Part shown: piece by piece, positions 3,192-41,567 of the stretch
Layout of the letters: each line of letters opens with the position of its first letter
Position numbering within the stretch: the first letter of the stretch is position 1
Origin: Sphingopyxis sp. QXT-31
GTDB lineage: Bacteria; Pseudomonadota; Alphaproteobacteria; Sphingomonadales; Sphingomonadaceae
Length of the DNA stretch: 64,000 nt
Assembly (NCBI RefSeq): GCF_001984035.1
Contig: NZ_CP019449.1
Coordinates: 2,914,001 to 2,978,000 of the forward strand
Direction: 5' to 3'
Notes under the pieces: generated by a model
What the model was told of the DNA's origin: nothing
The model's input: the letters and a program-made list of their open reading frames with translations, nothing else
The model's database searches: none
Translations under genes and position numbers: made by a program

Positions 3192-5216
3192 CTAGGCCAC
3201 CGCCACCGCAGCCCCGCCCGCGACGTCGCGGCCCGGCCGCCCGATCAGAAAGCCCTGCGCCTCGTCACAGCCTTCGCGGCGCAGCACGTCGAGCTGCTCG
3301 GCGGTTTCGATCCCCTCGGCCAGGATCGGAATGGAGAGGCTCTTGCCGAGCGCGAGCACCGCGCGGAGGATCGCGGTGGACTGGATATTGCCTTCCAGCT
3401 CGGCGGCGAAGAAGCGGTCGAGTTTGATCTTGTCGAAGGGAAAGGCGCGCAAGGTCTCGAGCGACGAATAGCCGGTCCCGAAATCGTCGAGCGCCACCCC
3501 GACGCCGAGCGCCTTGATCTGGCGCAGCACGTGCAGCGCGCGCTCGCGGTCGGCGATGATCGCGGTCTCGGTCAGCTCGATCTCGAGCCGCCGCGGCGGC
3601 AGCCCGCTGTCGAGCAGGATCTGGTGGAACAGCCGCGGCAGGTCGGCGTGCGACAGCTGCAGCGGCGAGACATTGACCGCGACCTTGGTCCGGTGCGGCC
3701 AGCCCGCGGCGTCGGTGCAGGCGCGGCGCAGCACCCATTCGCCGAGTGTCAGGATGAAGCCGTTCGCCTCGGCGATCGGAATGAAGACCGTCGGCGGGAT
3801 CGGCCCGCGCAAAGGATGCGTCCAGCGCAGCAGCGCCTCATAACCGGTGACCGCACCGCTCGTGACCGAGGTCTGGACCTGATAATGCACGTCGAGCTGG
3901 CCGCGGTCGATCGCGCGGCGGAGGTCCGCGGCGAGCTCGCGCTGGTCGCGGATCGCCTCGTCGAGCGACGAATCATAATGGAGCGGCACGGGCGCCGAAT
4001 CGGCCTTGGCGCGGTACATCGCGAGGTCGGCGTTGTTCGCCAGCATGTCGGCATTGGCGGCGTCGTCGGGGAAGACCGCGATGCCGATGCTCGCGCCCAG
4101 CCGCGCCTCGAATTCCTCGAACGCCAGCGGCGCCTTCAATTCGGCGTCGAGCCTTGCCGCGAAGGCCGCAATCTGTGCGCGGTCGGTAAAGCGCTTCAAT
4201 GCGACGAACTCGTCGCCGCCCAGCCGCGCGACGAACTCGTCCAGCCCCAGCGAGCCGCGCAGCCGCTGCGCGATGCGCACCAGCACCGCGTCGCCCGCCT
4301 TGTGGCCGTGGACGTCGTTGACCTCCTTGAAGCGGTCGAGGTCGATCGCGCACAGCCCGACGCGCTCGCCGCTCTCGCGCGCGATGTCGATCTGGCGCCC
4401 CAGTTCCTCGCGGAACGCGACGCGGTTGGGCAGCCCGGTCAGGCTGTCGTTCATCGCCATGCGCGTCATTTCGCGCAGCGCGTCAGAGCGCGTCTGGCGG
4501 TCGAGCATCGCGGCGAAGACGCCCGCGGCGATCACGATCCCGCCGACCAGCACCGTCGCCAGCGCCAGCGCGTTGAACCCCTCGGGGCGCAGCGGCGTCT
4601 CATCCAGCGCCATTGGGGTGATGCGCATCGCGGTCATCGCGAGGAAGTGGAGCAGCGCGATCGCCGCGACGATCAGCGCGGTCGCGACGGGCACGCGGTG
4701 GCGCACCGCGCGGCGCGTGCGTAGCAGCGCGACCGCCGCCGCTGCCAGCCCGACCCCGCTGACGATCGCCGCGATCACATAATTCATGTCCCACTGGACG
4801 ATGCCGTCGACGCGGTACGCGATCATGCCGGTGAAATGCATCGCCGCGATCGCGCCGCCGAACAAGGCGCCGCCCAGCCAGCCCCATGCGTCGTGCCGCC
4901 CCCAGGCGGCGACCGTGAAGCCGGCGAAACAGCCGACCATCGCGACCATCAGCGACGCGATGGTCAGCACCGGGTCGAGCGTCACCGGCGCCTTCGCCTC
5001 GAAGGCGAGCATCGCGACGAAATGCGTGCACCAGATCGTCGCGCTCGCCGCGACCGAGATGAGGAAGGCCCAGGCAAAGCCCTGCCCGCGCGGCGCCCCG
5101 CGCGCGCGCTCGAACATCTGGACGATGGCAAAGGCCCCGACGCCGCAAATCAGCACCGCCAGCGCGACGAGCCACGGGTCATGCTCGACCGCGATGCACA
5201 TGGCCAGCCTGATCAA
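3192..5216 (-). CDS. MHYT-GGDEF-EAL cyclic-di-GMP turnover protein
   Basis: A 674-residue membrane sensor with both diguanylate cyclase and phosphodiesterase domains. The N-terminal MHYT module has THFVAML (about 64-70), MHFTGMIAY (about 126-134) and LHFLAM (about 189-194) inside seven membrane segments; MHYT is thought to bind copper and sense O2, CO or NO. GGDEF is intact (333-337), but the arginine of the inhibitory RxxD site seems absent. The EAL domain is intact (EAL at 460-462, DDFGTGYS about 577, EGIE about 634). Both activities therefore look possible. The upstream 306 bp hold a 14-bp palindrome. Confidence 0.92.
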   Translation of the reverse strand: MIRLAMCIAVEHDPWLVALAVLICGVGAFAIVQMFERARGAPRGQGFAWAFLISVAASATIWCTHFVAMLAFEAKAPVTLDPVLTIASLMVAMVGCFAGFTVAAWGRHDAWGWLGGALFGGAIAAMHFTGMIAYRVDGIVQWDMNYVIAAIVSGVGLAAAAVALLRTRRAVRHRVPVATALIVAAIALLHFLAMTAMRITPMALDETPLRPEGFNALALATVLVGGIVIAAGVFAAMLDRQTRSDALREMTRMAMNDSLTGLPNRVAFREELGRQIDIARESGERVGLCAIDLDRFKEVNDVHGHKAGDAVLVRIAQRLRGSLGLDEFVARLGGDEFVALKRFTDRAQIAAFAARLDAELKAPLAFEEFEARLGASIGIAVFPDDAANADMLANNADLAMYRAKADSAPVPLHYDSSLDEAIRDQRELAADLRRAIDRGQLDVHYQVQTSVTSGAVTGYEALLRWTHPLRGPIPPTVFIPIAEANGFILTLGEWVLRRACTDAAGWPHRTKVAVNVSPLQLSHADLPRLFHQILLDSGLPPRRLEIELTETAIIADRERALHVLRQIKALGVGVALDDFGTGYSSLETLRAFPFDKIKLDRFFAAELEGNIQSTAILRAVLALGKSLSIPILAEGIETAEQLDVLRREGCDEAQGFLIGRPGRDVAGGAAVAVA

Positions 5217-5522
5217 AACCCCACCTTCCGACGCAGAGGCCCTGCCGGAATAGGTCCGGGCCGGAGCGGATGTGGCGGTAATTGCTTACAAATTTGTAAA
5301 TTTTGTTGACGGTGGGGAGGGCAAATCCTCCAGCGCGCCACTCTTTTTGCAGTCCGGCTGTTAAGCCCGAAGGAAGTTTTCGCGCGCGCCGTGCCGAAAC
5401 CCGCCGACACAATTGCGGGTGCGCTTATTTGACGTGATTTGGGACTCGCCTGATTGGTGTTTCAAACCAACTATCCCGATAAGCGCAGCATAAGCATGTT
5501 TGCGTAGACCTGAAGCACATAG
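5217..5522. other. Gap between SIR2-like and MHYT genes
   Basis: No coding region is supported. The stretch is visibly richer in A+T than the flanking genes and includes the presumed promoter region of the MHYT-GGDEF-EAL gene and the tail of the low-GC islet. Its one clear structure is the perfect 14-bp palindrome at 5286-5299. Confidence 0.5.
5286..5299. promoter_or_regulatory. Perfect 14-bp palindrome, candidate operator
   Basis: TTACAAATTTGTAA is its own reverse complement and lies about 70 bp upstream of the MHYT-GGDEF-EAL start, where a dimeric repressor or activator could act. Length and symmetry suit a helix-turn-helix dimer. No regulator is assigned. Confidence 0.35.
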
Positions 5523-6554
5523 CTACGCCGAGATTGTGCGCCAGTTTTCCCGAAAGAGGTCCGAGCAAGTTCCGTTGTGCAGCACTAAGCCTTCCACGCC
5601 CTCCGGCAAATTGAACATTCCTCGTATTTGGCGCTCAATCTGGCGCTGTTCGTTCTCAGGCAAATTATAGACGGTAGCTAGCACTCGCTCAGCTCCAGAA
5701 TCGGCTGGCCGGATGATATCCATATTTGGCGCGTGGAATGCGAATCCAAGGAATATGACCTGATCTACATCGGTAAGCGTGTTGCGAATTTGAGCAAGCG
5801 CCACTGCGTCATCGATTCTCTCACTGAACGTACGAATTTGCTCCACCAATCCCGCATATTGAGCATTTTCAGTGCCGCCAAATGACACCCCGCCATTTGC
5901 GACCTCCCATGGAAGAGAGGACACCCGACCATAGGGATGCATGATACGAAGCGACTTGGTCAATTCACGCGCTTCGTCGAGAGTTATGCCCCAGGAGGTA
6001 GCTAATGAAAACGGAAGGAAGTGCTGAAGAGCGCGGTCATAATTGAAACAAATAATAGAAAGGTTCTCAAAAACTTCTTTAGCTCGGCGACGTGGTATAT
6101 TTTCAACCAAGATTTGACCGAAGCGCCCATACCAAGTGTGCGCCAATGCCCCTATGTTGATAGAATCCGGCCTATCTCGCGGAGGCATTAATAGACTATC
6201 TCTTTCGGCCTGAAGAATTGACCTAAGAATTGCCAATTTCCCGCATATAGCAACGCGATCGTCGTCGTCATGCTGTTCAATGATGTTATCTATCGACAAA
6301 CCTAGAATGCTCGCATCCCTGATTCGCCAAGCGGCAGCCAAATATTTGTTGTAATCCGCACCGTACTGACGGTCTGGCATCAAATCACGTAACGCCTCAG
6401 AAATTTTATAGTCTCCGCTGTTTAGGCGGTTCCCCATTTCGAAGCGGATATCCAGAATTTTTCGGATTTCCTTAAGCAAGCCTTGTCCGTCCGGAAATTT
6501 CGCTTCGCAGCTCGCACCGGCGCCAACCACCAAAGCGGTCTTAGATCGAAACAT
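5523..6554 (-). CDS. SIR2-like family protein (putative NAD-consuming, possible defence gene)
   Basis: A 343-residue protein with the pattern of bacterial SIR2-like NAD-binding domains: GAGAS (11-15), the SIDNIIE segment (87-93), FNYDR (170-174; Asn and Asp of the active site), HPYG (206-209; likely catalytic His) and FLGFAFH (268-274). Relatives with this domain act in anti-phage systems such as Thoeris ThsA and DSR by depleting NAD+; that role here is inference. No second effector domain or transmembrane segment is visible. Composition is anomalous: positions 6181-6240 hold 24 G+C of 60. It follows the Atm1-type transporter stop by 12 nt, with AAGGGG before its ATG. Confidence 0.8.
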   Translation of the reverse strand: MFRSKTALVVGAGASCEAKFPDGQGLLKEIRKILDIRFEMGNRLNSGDYKISEALRDLMPDRQYGADYNKYLAAAWRIRDASILGLSIDNIIEQHDDDDRVAICGKLAILRSILQAERDSLLMPPRDRPDSINIGALAHTWYGRFGQILVENIPRRRAKEVFENLSIICFNYDRALQHFLPFSLATSWGITLDEARELTKSLRIMHPYGRVSSLPWEVANGGVSFGGTENAQYAGLVEQIRTFSERIDDAVALAQIRNTLTDVDQVIFLGFAFHAPNMDIIRPADSGAERVLATVYNLPENEQRQIERQIRGMFNLPEGVEGLVLHNGTCSDLFRENWRTISA

Positions 6555-6566
6555 GCGGATTCCCCT

Positions 6567-8381
6567 TCATACCGTCCCCTCCTCCTTCTCCGCCTGCTGC
6601 CTAGCCCACATGTCGGCATAGAGCCCGCGCATCCGCAGCAGCTCTTCGTGCGTCCCCGTCTCCGCCACACGGCCACGGTCGAGCACGATGATCCGGTCGG
6701 CGTTGACCACCGTCGACAGCCTATGCGCGATCACCAGCGTCGTGCGGCGCTCCGCAATTCGCTCCAAAGTCGCCTGGATCGCCGCCTCGGTGCGGCTGTC
6801 GAGGGCGCTCGTCGCTTCGTCGAGGATCAGGATCGGCGGGTTCTTGAGCAGAGTGCGCGCGATCGCGACGCGCTGTTTCTCGCCGCCCGACAGCTTCAGC
6901 CCGCGCTCGCCGACCTCGGTGTCATAGCCCTGCGGCAGGATCGAAATGAAACCGTCGATCGCCGCGCCCTCGGCCGCCGCCGCGATCGCCTCGGCGCTCG
7001 CATCGGCGCGGCCATAGGCGATGTTATAGCCGATGCTGTCGTTGAACAGCACCGTGTCCTGCGGGACGATGCCGATCTCGGCGCGCAGGCTCGCCTGCGT
7101 CACCTGCGAAATATCCTGCTCGTCGATCGTGATGCGCCCGCCCTGCGGGTCGTAGAAGCGGAAGAGCAGCCGCGCGATCGTCGACTTGCCCGCGCCCGAC
7201 GGCCCGACGATGGCCACCGTCTCGCCCGCCCCCGCGGCGAAGCTGACGCCGTTCAGGATCGTCCGGTCGGGCTCGTAACCGAACACCACATTCTCGAACG
7301 CCACCGCGCCGCCGTTCACGACGAGCGGCCAGGCGCCGTCGGCGTCGCGCACCTCGGGCGGGGTGTCGATCAGGCGGAACATCGCCTCCATGTCGATCAG
7401 CCCCTGGCGGATCACGCGATAGACCATGCCGAGCATGTCGAGCGGGCGGAACAGCTGCGCGAGCAATGTGTTCACCAGCACCACGTCGCCGACCTTATAC
7501 TCGCCGATCGACCAGCCCCACACGGTATAGGCCATCGCCCCCGCCATCGCGGCGTTGGTGATGAAGCTCTGCCCGATGTTGAGCCACGCCAGGCTGTTCT
7601 CGCTCTTCACCGCGGCCTTGGCATATTGGTCGGCGACGTCGCGATAGCGCGCCGCCTCGCGTTCCTCGGCGCCGAAATATTTGACCGTCTCGTAATTGAG
7701 CAGGCTGTCGACACTGCGCCCGACGGTCAGCGTGTCGAGGTCGTTCATGCGGACGCGCAGCGCATTGCGCCAGTCGGTCACCTTGCGCGTGAAGATGATG
7801 TAGAGCACCACCATCAGCGCGGTCGCGCTGGCGAGCCCGAAGCTGAACTTGGTCCAGAAGATGATCAGCACCGCGGCAAGCTCGATCACCGTCGGCGCGA
7901 TGTTGAAGAGCAGGAAATAGAGCATCGTGTCGATGCTCTTCGTCCCGCGCTCGATTACCTTGGTCACCTCGCCGGTGCGCCGCGCGAGGTGGAAGCGCAG
8001 GCTCAGCGCATGGAGGTGGGTGAAGGTCGCGATCGCCAGCTCGCGCGTCGCATCCTGCCCGACGCGCTCGAACACGACGTTGCGCAGATTGTCGAACAGC
8101 ACCCCGGCGAAGCGTGCGCCGGCATAAGCGAGCACCAGCCCGATCGCGAGCGCCACCCCCTCCTGCATCCCCCGCGCCATCTTGTCGATCGCCGCGCCGT
8201 AGAGGAAACCCATCGACAGCTGCACGCCCTTCGACGCGAGCACGATGAGCGCGGCGGCGACGATGCGGACCTTGTGCCCGCCGTTCCCCGCGGGCCACAG
8301 ATAGGGAAGGAAGCGCCGCAGCGTCGCGAGGACGGGCGGCTCCTTGGCCGCCTCGGCGGAAGTGGACGTATCGGGCGGCAT
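6567..8381 (-). CDS. Atm1/HMT-type ABC exporter (fused TMD-NBD)
   Basis: A half-transporter of 604 residues, close in length to Novosphingobium NaAtm1 (608), the structurally known exporter of glutathione-conjugated metals. Six membrane helices span roughly 35-325, with the Atm1 phrase NYETVKYFGAEE (about 229-239). The nucleotide-binding domain has Walker A GPSGAGKS (393-400), signature LSGGEKQR, Walker B LILDEATS and switch IAHRLS. I chose the internal Met at 8381 over the longer frame from 8432 because the extra 17 residues look unstructured and the length then fits. Likely substrates are glutathione-metal or sulfur compounds. Confidence 0.9.
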   Translation of the reverse strand: MPPDTSTSAEAAKEPPVLATLRRFLPYLWPAGNGGHKVRIVAAALIVLASKGVQLSMGFLYGAAIDKMARGMQEGVALAIGLVLAYAGARFAGVLFDNLRNVVFERVGQDATRELAIATFTHLHALSLRFHLARRTGEVTKVIERGTKSIDTMLYFLLFNIAPTVIELAAVLIIFWTKFSFGLASATALMVVLYIIFTRKVTDWRNALRVRMNDLDTLTVGRSVDSLLNYETVKYFGAEEREAARYRDVADQYAKAAVKSENSLAWLNIGQSFITNAAMAGAMAYTVWGWSIGEYKVGDVVLVNTLLAQLFRPLDMLGMVYRVIRQGLIDMEAMFRLIDTPPEVRDADGAWPLVVNGGAVAFENVVFGYEPDRTILNGVSFAAGAGETVAIVGPSGAGKSTIARLLFRFYDPQGGRITIDEQDISQVTQASLRAEIGIVPQDTVLFNDSIGYNIAYGRADASAEAIAAAAEGAAIDGFISILPQGYDTEVGERGLKLSGGEKQRVAIARTLLKNPPILILDEATSALDSRTEAAIQATLERIAERRTTLVIAHRLSTVVNADRIIVLDRGRVAETGTHEELLRMRGLYADMWARQQAEKEEGTV

Positions 8382-8457
8382 GCGCGGCCTATGTAGGGTG
8401 GCGGGGGTGTCGCGCCAAGCGCGGTTGGCCAAGCCTTCGGGCGCAGTGCCATTTTAG

Positions 8458-37902: not shown

Positions 37903-37950
37903 CACCAAAGCGCGTAGACATTTGCCCCGCCGCGCCCTAACGTCGCGCCA

Positions 37951-38040
37951 TCCCCGGGGAGCCTGTGTGCAGCAACAGGTTGAGAGCGGAACAAGCCGCG
38001 ACCCGTCGAACCTGATCCCGGTAACTCGGGCGGAGGGAGG
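37951..38040 (+). promoter_or_regulatory. TPP (THI-box) riboswitch
   Basis: The conserved THI core is present: GTTGAGAGCGG (pyrimidine-sensing side), then ACCCGTCGAACCTGATC, CGGTAACTCGGG-type P4/P5 and the closing GCGGAGGGA. It sits 60 nt before thiC, the classic target. Thiamine pyrophosphate binding should lower thiC expression. Confidence 0.95.
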
Positions 38041-38071
38041 GCCGGTTTTCCGCACTCGGAATCCATGCCCC

Positions 38072-39993
<1,922 letters not shown>

Positions 39994-40040
39994 TGTTGCC
40001 GCTCTGATCGGTCACAAACGTCTTTGTTCGCGGCACCACC

Positions 40041-41567
40041 ATGGGTCAAACGAGGGCGAAACACACGATGGCAACGCAGTCGGCTAGCATAATGAGGGGC
40101 ACGCTTGCTTTGGGCGGCGCATTGTTCTTGGTGACGGCGTCGCAGGTTAAATCGGCCGAGCCGGATCCCTTCGACGTTTGCGCGTCCCTCGATGCAACGC
40201 CTTCGGTGCAGACCAAAATCGAAGCATGCTCCGAAACAATCAAGCAGACTATAGGGAATCGAGCCGCTCTTAAAGAAAACAAGGACGCTGAATTTCTAGC
40301 GTCTACTTATGCCATCCGTGGCTTTCACAAGGCCTCGATAAAAGACTACGAGGGCGCAATTGCGGATTATTTGATTTCGATAGAGAGGGGTTCGAAATCT
40401 CCCTCTGTTTTTTATAATCTCGCAAATGCATATCGTAACTTCAACAAATATGAAGAATCGATAGTAAATTACAAAAAATCTATAGAATTGAAGCCGGACT
40501 ATTTATGGGCTCTTATAAATTTAGGATATTCATACAAAGACTTGGGAGACATAGATTCAGCCAAAGTTGTAATATCTAGAGCGAAAAAAATCGATCCTGA
40601 TAATCTGGATGTAATACATATCGACGCAATACTTATTGGCTATTCAGGAGACTTGGATCGATCGATATCGGAATTCGGTAAAATAATTGCACAAGATCCC
40701 AAGCGCGCAGGTGCTTATGCAGATAGAGGTTGGTCTCTTTACCAATTACGCAGATTTGACGATGCGATACGAGACTTCGACAAGGCGATAAGTTTGGCCC
40801 CTGCCAACATGGCGGCGTATCACAATCGTGCCGCCGTGCGGCTCGAGAAAGGCGATCAAGAAGGGGGACTGGCCGATTTGAACGAAGCCCTTCGCCTTGC
40901 GCCCTCCAATGCCAAAGCCGTACTCGACCGGGCGCTGTTATTTACGCGGCAGGGTCGCAATGGCGAAGCCGATTCCGAATTCGACAGAGCGCTTCGAATG
41001 AATCCGTCTTTAGCGCCCCACGCTTATGCGCGAAGGGGAAAATGGTGGTTCGACAAGCAGAATTATGATCGCGCCGAACAGGATTTCGGCAAGCTCGTCA
41101 CGCTCGAGCCGGCCGTCGCTGATTGGGTCCATTTGCGCGGATTGGCCAGATACGACGCGGGCCGCGTGAAGGAGGGCATCGGCGATTACGACGCTGCCGC
41201 AAGAATGGATCCCGAGAATCCCACCTATCAGAATTCGCGCTGCTGGGGCCGGGCGCTTGCGGGCCTTGAACTGGATGTCGCGCTGAACGCGTGCAACCAG
41301 GCGATCGCGCGGTCGCCCGTATCGCAGCAACGCGCTTCGTTCCTCGACAGCCGCGGCCGGGCGCATCTCGCGCGAAAAGAATATGCCGATGCGCTGAGCG
41401 ACTATGACGCAGCACTGCTGATCGCACCGAAAATGTCGAGCGCGCTTTATGGGCGCGGCCTCGCTCGCAAGCAGTTGAACCAGCCGGACGGCGAGCGGGA
41501 TATTCGCGAGGCTCTATTATTGGACCCGGCGGCCGCAAAGCATTTTTCCGCGCTCGATTTAGGATGA
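40041..41567 (+). CDS. Exported TPR-repeat protein with mixed base composition
   Basis: A 508-residue protein with a signal peptide (best from Met 18 at 40092: RGTLALGGALFLVTASQVKSA) and about ten tetratricopeptide repeats from residue 85 on (for example YNLANAYRNFNKYEESIVNYKKSIELKPD). TPR arrays bind proteins; the partner is unknown. The 5' half is AT-rich (19 G+C of 60 at 40501-40560) while the 3' part is like its neighbours (36 of 60 at 41401-41460). Starts at 40041, 40068 and 40092 are all possible; none has a clear ribosome site. Confidence 0.8.
   Translation: MGQTRAKHTMATQSASIMRGTLALGGALFLVTASQVKSAEPDPFDVCASLDATPSVQTKIEACSETIKQTIGNRAALKENKDAEFLASTYAIRGFHKASIKDYEGAIADYLISIERGSKSPSVFYNLANAYRNFNKYEESIVNYKKSIELKPDYLWALINLGYSYKDLGDIDSAKVVISRAKKIDPDNLDVIHIDAILIGYSGDLDRSISEFGKIIAQDPKRAGAYADRGWSLYQLRRFDDAIRDFDKAISLAPANMAAYHNRAAVRLEKGDQEGGLADLNEALRLAPSNAKAVLDRALLFTRQGRNGEADSEFDRALRMNPSLAPHAYARRGKWWFDKQNYDRAEQDFGKLVTLEPAVADWVHLRGLARYDAGRVKEGIGDYDAAARMDPENPTYQNSRCWGRALAGLELDVALNACNQAIARSPVSQQRASFLDSRGRAHLARKEYADALSDYDAALLIAPKMSSALYGRGLARKQLNQPDGERDIREALLLDPAAAKHFSALDLG

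Follow-up and report, generated by a model that had tools for sequence, protein, structure and literature searches.

What function a solitary SIR2-like gene may serve behind an Atm1-type ATP-binding cassette (ABC) exporter, and whether it has anything to do with that exporter, are the questions raised by the locus analyzed here, which lies in a 64,000-nucleotide (nt) stretch of Sphingopyxis sp. QXT-31 DNA (hereafter, the window). An earlier note, based on the letters of the window alone, had drawn attention to five motifs of SIR2-like domains that handle nicotinamide adenine dinucleotide (NAD), and had suggested either a minimal one-gene NADase or a new system that makes use of the exporter. 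The gene does encode 343 residues, in the open reading frame (ORF) 5523-6554 on the minus strand, and all five motifs are present. With moderate confidence, we assign it to the SIR2 superfamily associated with defence, as a mobile, single-gene, anti-phage protein whose active site has 'YG', a tyrosine being aligned to the place of the catalytic histidine.

Fold and active site of the SIR2-like protein

The AlphaFold2 (AF2) model of the protein (predicted local distance difference test score, pLDDT, 95.3; predicted template modelling score, pTM, 0.92) consists of one SIR2 fold, of the Rossmann type expected for the superfamily. Foldseek/VIA structure matches to KomC, SIR2-HerA, ThsA, SPARSA, DSR2 and sirtuins use up the whole 343-residue model and leave no further domain, so that the protein is predicted to be a single, complete SIR2 domain that includes a helical part of its own and is devoid of effector or partner. 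The structural comparison with ThsA and DSR proposed earlier thus returns a SIR2 fold, the closest counterparts of which are the SIR2 portions of SIR2-HerA, ThsA, KomC and DSR2, rather than an unrelated fold lacking an NAD pocket; the earlier remark that no effector or partner domain is visible also holds, given this single domain and the lack of a recurrent partner gene described below. Neither Pfam nor NCBIfam names the protein, PADLOC yields only a weak match, and the cut-off of Pfam SIR2_2 (PF13289; 24.5 bits) is not reached, no match of the window protein being listed at E <= 1. Among eight relatives scanned with the same profile, five match at 16.7-23.6 bits and three do not match at all, and 41 of 65 family members have SIR2_2 matches at E <= 0.1.

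The NAD pocket of SIR2 enzymes contains an asparagine (in NxD) and a catalytic histidine (in HG). The GAGxS and NxD signatures of the superfamily are found in the window protein as GAGAS and FNYD; instead of the HG of canonical enzymes, the alignment presents Tyr208-Gly209. At position 208 the family (n=262) has Tyr in 255 sequences, His in three, Phe in two, Leu in one and a gap in one, and the corresponding column of a sister clade (120 sequences listed) has His in 88, Tyr in 30 and Phe in two. Gly209 is present in all 120 sister-clade rows and in 261 of the 262 family rows (one gap) of the joint alignment, in which the motif is free of gaps. From the invariance of this glycine and the His/Tyr column of the sister clade it follows that, by alignment, Tyr208 is the residue at the catalytic-histidine position.

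The histidine of HPYG, which the earlier note had taken as catalytic, was considered and rejected as the catalytic base: position 206 is variable in the family (His 208, Arg 50, Tyr 3, gap 1), His is present there in 119 of the 120 sister-clade rows, whose motif reads H-x-[HY]-G, and the HG position falls two residues on, at Tyr208. Since His206 is not at the catalytic position, the Asn/His substitutions proposed earlier would aim at the wrong residue; motif reading alone selects the wrong histidine here. Two SIR2_2 proteins also carry a histidine two positions ahead of the HG histidine (LHIHG and MHMHG).

The sister clade was found by a search from a viral relative, L216, which returned 640 proteins, of which 120 were listed and read. 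L216 carries H-L-H-G-S-L, matches SIR2_2 over residues 136-255 (E 6.2e-05, just below the cut-off), and its LHG aligns, weakly, with the catalytic 'lhg' of a separate SIR2_2 profile built from other proteins. The strand preceding the motif starts six residues ahead of the glycine in both AF2 models compared, the second of which, of a KomC-like protein, is weak there (pLDDT 78.6 overall, 59 in the motif block). The 262 family rows comprise 220 sequences plus 42 of 44 viral loci; a few distant viral rows (L213-L218) lie nearer the sister clade, and L216, one of the three His208 family rows, is the same protein as P0241 of that clade. Six loci of the taxonomic-family search that lack an ORF passing the FNYDR filter were excluded from the residue counts. 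The sister clade itself (P0241-P0360) consists mostly of proteins of ~300-340 residues that stand between SIR2_2 and AbiH in Pfam terms, many matching PF13289 and two of 120 matching PF14253, a hint that AbiH may itself be a SIR2-fold protein.

Exchange between the two residues appears to have been recurrent. With the motif columns removed, a FastTree phylogeny (375 of 382 rows) requires at least 16 His/Tyr changes at position 208, and a quick IQ-TREE run (99 rows: 80 from the sister clade, the His208 family rows and every 16th of the others) yields 14, of which at least seven are forced by well supported branches. Taken with the near-frozen residues of the pocket (Table 1), this repeated change suggests that both His and Tyr serve in a working protein. 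According to PMC12931631, the HG motif had been considered absolutely conserved until Avs5, in which NG and HG homologues occur at ~1:1; PaAvs5-1 (NG) hydrolyses NAD+ upon infection, and its Asn153 can be swapped for His with reduced immunity, Ala and Gln not being tolerated. Tyrosine would be a second natural variant. No description of the family or of a YG motif was found among the open-licence PMC papers searched.

Insertion of the gene and spread of its family

The SIR2-like gene is a lineage-specific insert, placed alone between two older chromosomal genes. The exporter gives a long DNA match (at least 1,161 nt) in 78 of 80 genus genomes, its own included, and the family profile matches in three of the 80: the own genome, which has a single copy, one genome with the match split across two contigs and one with a 56-position fragment. 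In none of the 53 relatives whose stretch downstream of the exporter was taken does the gene occupy this spot, and in 12 of them the exporter lies directly beside the GGDEF-EAL gene, with 109-173 nt between the two, constituting an empty site that was aligned in two cases. Among relatives in which both flanking genes were matched, homology breaks on the GGDEF-EAL side at 5300-5319 in four and at 5227-5229 in two, and restarts at 6562-6571 on the exporter side in all 14 relatives read, which sizes the insert at ~1.25 kb; since the exporter query extended only 7 nt beyond the stop, the break was taken from this flank comparison. An insertion behind the exporter, as surmised earlier, is hence supported, and conservation at the locus with normal composition, which would have argued otherwise, is not what we see; the feature start formerly set at 5400 does fall within the islet, which itself begins further out, at ~5320.

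The islet is also poor in GC. The GC content of the ORF is 0.494, against 0.664 across the window; at third codon positions the ORF has 0.51, where its two neighbours reach 0.91 and 0.92. The count of 24 G+C among the 60 nt of 6181-6240 given earlier was reproduced. In 500 shuffles of the islet the longest open stretch was 221 codons, so that a frame of 343 codons is not due to chance. Repeats, transposon ends and terminal repeats sought around the islet amounted to short, chance-like repeats only; small partner ORFs overlapping 5250-5560 were limited to short frames without support; and no tRNA was found at the insertion site or anywhere else in the window, where Rfam at gathering threshold returned only a riboswitch located elsewhere.

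In 45 of the 53 relatives the next conserved gene lies within the stretch taken downstream of the exporter. Besides the 12 empty sites, three show the exporter directly beside a KefB-like gene (the one that follows GGDEF-EAL), with 80-99 nt between them, and the exporter-to-next-gene spacing is 250-800 nt in five and more than 800 nt of other sequence in 25. Within this genus, the locus seems to be one at which genes come and go. In 28 of the 45 the KefB-like gene, rather than GGDEF-EAL, is the next conserved gene; the interval of L115 and L117, the exporter DNA of which is 94% identical, holds what by eye is aquaporin-like cargo, and low-GC unknown sequence occurs in other intervals among relatives L115-L128 and L219-L257 (52% GC in the L119 gap, 42% in one L118 ORF).

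The family is broad and patchy. Across the taxonomic family, 32 of 397 genomes have a match (the own genome included, two partial), spread over 17 of 96 genera. Protein collections yield 338 matches at E <= 0.001, of which 120 were listed, and 450 loci were confirmed in named genomes. Neighbourhoods were analyzed in the best 80 of these 450 loci, many of them metagenome bins and 77 with the target ORF; their record titles name Alpha-, Beta-, Gamma- and Deltaproteobacteria, Planctomycetes, Nitrospirae, Acidobacteria, Chlorobiaceae and others. In 67 of the 75 loci with a GC comparison (out of the 77), the gene is at least five points lower in GC than its surroundings. When the genes around the target, as many as six to either side, were clustered across the 80 loci, no recurrent partner gene emerged, the largest cluster reaching seven loci at scattered offsets.

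Relatives are also encoded at 44 loci of viral contigs, some of them distant. A PHROGs scan of 20 neighbours in nine hand-picked viral loci identified virion, integration or lysis genes beside seven (major head, protease, portal, terminase, minor head, integrase and holin, one portal match being weak), and a methyltransferase and a family of unknown function beside the remaining two. Five more viral loci share the same capsid neighbour, four of them with a full capsid-protease-portal-terminase row. In one prophage group (L175, L193, L194, L195, L196 and L200) the gene directly adjoins the major capsid gene, head-on. A solitary gene set among the structural genes of a phage is what a moron typically looks like, and morons often act against competing phages. 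Plasmid matches come from 14 records, all of Agrobacterium or Rhizobium and 29-33% identical, ten being A. fabrum plasmids whose matches are almost identical to each other.

Table 1. Features of the SIR2-like locus and of the encoded protein (positions in the window).
Feature	Position	Strand	Basis
Stand-alone SIR2-fold gene (predicted fold), 343 aa	5523..6554	-	ORF and translation; AF2; Foldseek/VIA matches
Inserted low-GC islet, ~1.25 kb	5320..6566	.	flank comparison with relatives, in which it is absent; empty-site alignment with two
12-nt spacer, Shine-Dalgarno-like AGGGGA directly past the exporter stop	6555..6566	-	sequence
GAGAS, residues 11-15, putative nucleotide-binding loop	6510..6524	-	Gly11 259/262 and Gly13 259/262 family sequences
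SIDN, residues 87-90	6285..6296	-	Asp89 261/262 family, 120/120 sister clade
Glu117, invariant acidic residue at the end of predicted helix 99-119	6204..6206	-	262/262 family, 118/120 sister clade; helix from AF2
FNYDR, residues 170-174, TTNxD counterpart	6033..6047	-	Asn171 260/262, Asp173 262/262, Arg174 261/262; KomC TTNYDR
HPYG, residues 206-209; Tyr208 aligned to the canonical catalytic-His position, Gly209 to the Gly of HG	5928..5939	-	family/sister-clade alignment
GFAFH, residues 270-274	5733..5747	-	Gly270 258/262; His274 199/262
Atm1-type ABC exporter (host gene bordering the insertion)	6567..8432	-	best PDB match 4mrn
MHYT-GGDEF-EAL protein (host gene on the opposite side)	3192..5216	-	Pfam MHYT, GGDEF, EAL

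On the GGDEF-EAL side of the islet, a perfect palindrome (TTACAAATTTGTAA, 5286-5299) lies upstream of the MHYT-GGDEF-EAL gene; because similar sites occur in both aligned empty-site relatives, it may be an operator. The window contains two low-GC stretches of this type, the other, near 40 kb, being slightly lower in GC. This second stretch (39800-41200, 48% GC) covers much of a 508-residue ORF (40041-41567, plus strand) that by eye resembles tetratricopeptide repeats and stands directly behind a ThiC-like gene (38101-39993, plus strand; label also by eye), itself preceded by a thiamine pyrophosphate riboswitch at 37945-38055 (Rfam RF00059, 59.1 bits).

Weighing the possible functions

The most probable course of events would be as follows. 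The gene was inserted alone behind the exporter, which may supply a transcript to it and no function; the single SIR2 domain would act in phage conflict, through abortive infection or superinfection exclusion, sensing infection directly and perhaps assembling; and NAD+ would be bound and then cleaved, or a group transferred from it, to stop the phage. In such a re-tooled YG site Asn171, Asp173, Arg174 and Tyr208 would do the work, perhaps together with Glu117 and Asp89. Several results weigh against this reading. No match was obtained among 50,697 deposited phage records, nor among viral structure models at E <= 0.001. Of the 181 neighbours that lie no more than two genes away and have 130-900 residues, 150 were scanned with PADLOC and Pfam (25 families listed for each); these chromosomal neighbours are mostly ordinary genes, PADLOC matched one member per model, and no defence-island signal is visible among them, in a scan made without a control gene set. 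In addition, hhalign of the family against a narrow, 20-sequence KomC-like profile set KFHG opposite VSFGG, and not HPYG, wherever the region aligned, with probabilities of 5-49% for excised pieces and of 84-90% over the full chain, the latter owing to the N-terminal part, and a second comparison aligned just 76 N-terminal columns; we give little weight to this profile because it was built from a narrow set and has to open several gaps to arrive at that placement. Last, the His-to-Tyr mutant H363Y of SIRT1 is catalytically inactive (PMC2605257), so that the YG family may have lost classical activity.

This SIRT1 result makes a binding-only role the main rival: a SIR2-fold protein without NADase chemistry would hold NAD, ADP-ribose or a signal resembling cyclic ADP-ribose and act by binding or oligomerising, the tyrosine, in place of a histidine considered essential, marking lost catalysis. 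A ligand pocket could stay conserved without catalysis, but Asn171, Asp173, Arg174, Glu117 and Gly209 are all but invariant, and proteins that otherwise resemble one another have switched time and again between His and Tyr, a pattern more in keeping with retained chemistry than with decay; we hold this role to be unlikely. Retained chemistry need not be that of a defence NADase, since the protein could act on a macromolecule, as an ADP-ribosyltransferase or deacylase, and might do so in the phage's own biology (for RNA repair or for some lysogenic function). Relatives are indeed carried in viral contigs, and PMC9503650 describes a phage sirtuin clade proposed for RNA repair and others proposed for macromolecular ADP-ribosylation; yet the RNA-repair sirtuins described there adjoin ligase, 2H, Nudix or phosphatase genes, whereas no neighbour family recurs widely here, and chromosomal copies are widespread, making such a role distinctly improbable.

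The gene could also be a neutral passenger, hitch-hiking without benefit to host or phage, as its patchy spread might suggest, but pocket residues are conserved over 262 sequences that are mostly ~40% identical or less, which indicates a protein under selection somewhere and renders this explanation very improbable. Even less can be said for a function tied to the exporter, such as a two-gene unit on its transcript in glutathione or metal stress. The exporter label given earlier is correct, the best PDB match being the ATM1-type heavy metal exporter 4mrn (E 1.4e-251), and so is the 12-nt distance: the exporter ends at 6567, the ORF starts at 6554 on the same strand, and AGGGGA sits at Shine-Dalgarno distance, an arrangement that would let the exporter transcript carry the SIR2-like gene. 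A consensus scan of 5200-6700 found no sigma-70-like promoter, a result that says little because shuffles average only 1.4. Against an exporter-SIR2 operon as a functional unit stand the absence of the gene from this spot in all 53 relatives and the lack of any ABC-transporter family among the 18 Pfam families matched by at least two of the 150 neighbours; on these grounds it was rejected. The survey of gene neighbourhoods for co-occurrence with the exporter, proposed earlier, thus shows no exporter link, a new system built on the exporter is not supported, and the association is accidental; an exporter-tied function of any kind is barely credible.

A tyrosine near-fixed in a large mobile family, and swapped with histidine in its sister clade, would imply that the histidine is not obligatory, and could alter how SIR2 effectors are recognised and tested. 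One may go further and postulate a widespread, self-sufficient family that combines sensing and effect in one domain of ~350 residues, in a superfamily in which His gave way to Tyr several times, and that performs non-classical chemistry, for instance yielding a different NAD product or a transfer to a phage target via Glu117/Asp89; this bolder version is tentative. The whole candidate system being one gene of ~1 kb, defence, trigger and product are directly testable.

Comparison with known SIR2 systems

Among characterized systems, the closest structural match is KomC (Foldseek, 8zsf, E 3.7e-05), which we take to be the SIR2 NADase of the KomBC complex of the Kongming system. Both are single-domain SIR2 proteins, with TTNYDR in KomC and FNYDR in the window protein; KomC, however, has KFHG (mutant entry H146N, 9xvc) and a partner, KomB, whereas the window protein has PYG and no partner, Kom genes being absent from beside it (the flanks are the exporter and GGDEF-EAL) and no neighbour recurring in the 80 loci. 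The same neighbourhoods set it apart from SIR2-HerA (Nezha, Gao19), to which it is 14% identical, as its flanks contain no HerA ATPase. In Thoeris, ThsA combines SIR2 with SLOG, a second domain that the window protein lacks; for the TIR protein ThsB, the window scan covered the two flanking genes only, and family loci elsewhere have no recurrent partner. The predicted SIR2 fold is common to DSR1 and DSR2 as well, but DSR2 is ~1000 residues long and the 343-residue window protein has no such long extra part; according to PMC11290490, N133A and H171A abolish the NADase activity of DSR2.

AbiH (PF14253), an abortive-infection gene whose mode of action is unknown according to PMC12322248, gives a weak Pfam match to the window protein (13.6 bits, under the cut-off of 30.9); AbiH was also sought in 80 genomes of the order and not found, but control genomes were equally silent. 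FAM118B, a vertebrate SIR2 protein likened to bacterial ones, retains the active-site histidine. For an altered HG motif the nearest precedent is Avs5 (AVAST type 5). It is a STAND protein with sensor and ATPase parts and Asn as the substitute, in contrast to a single 343-residue domain with Tyr, but it shares with the window protein a SIR2 domain with GAGxS and NxD in which the histidine of HG is replaced, and, as PMC12931631 reports, it is anti-phage.
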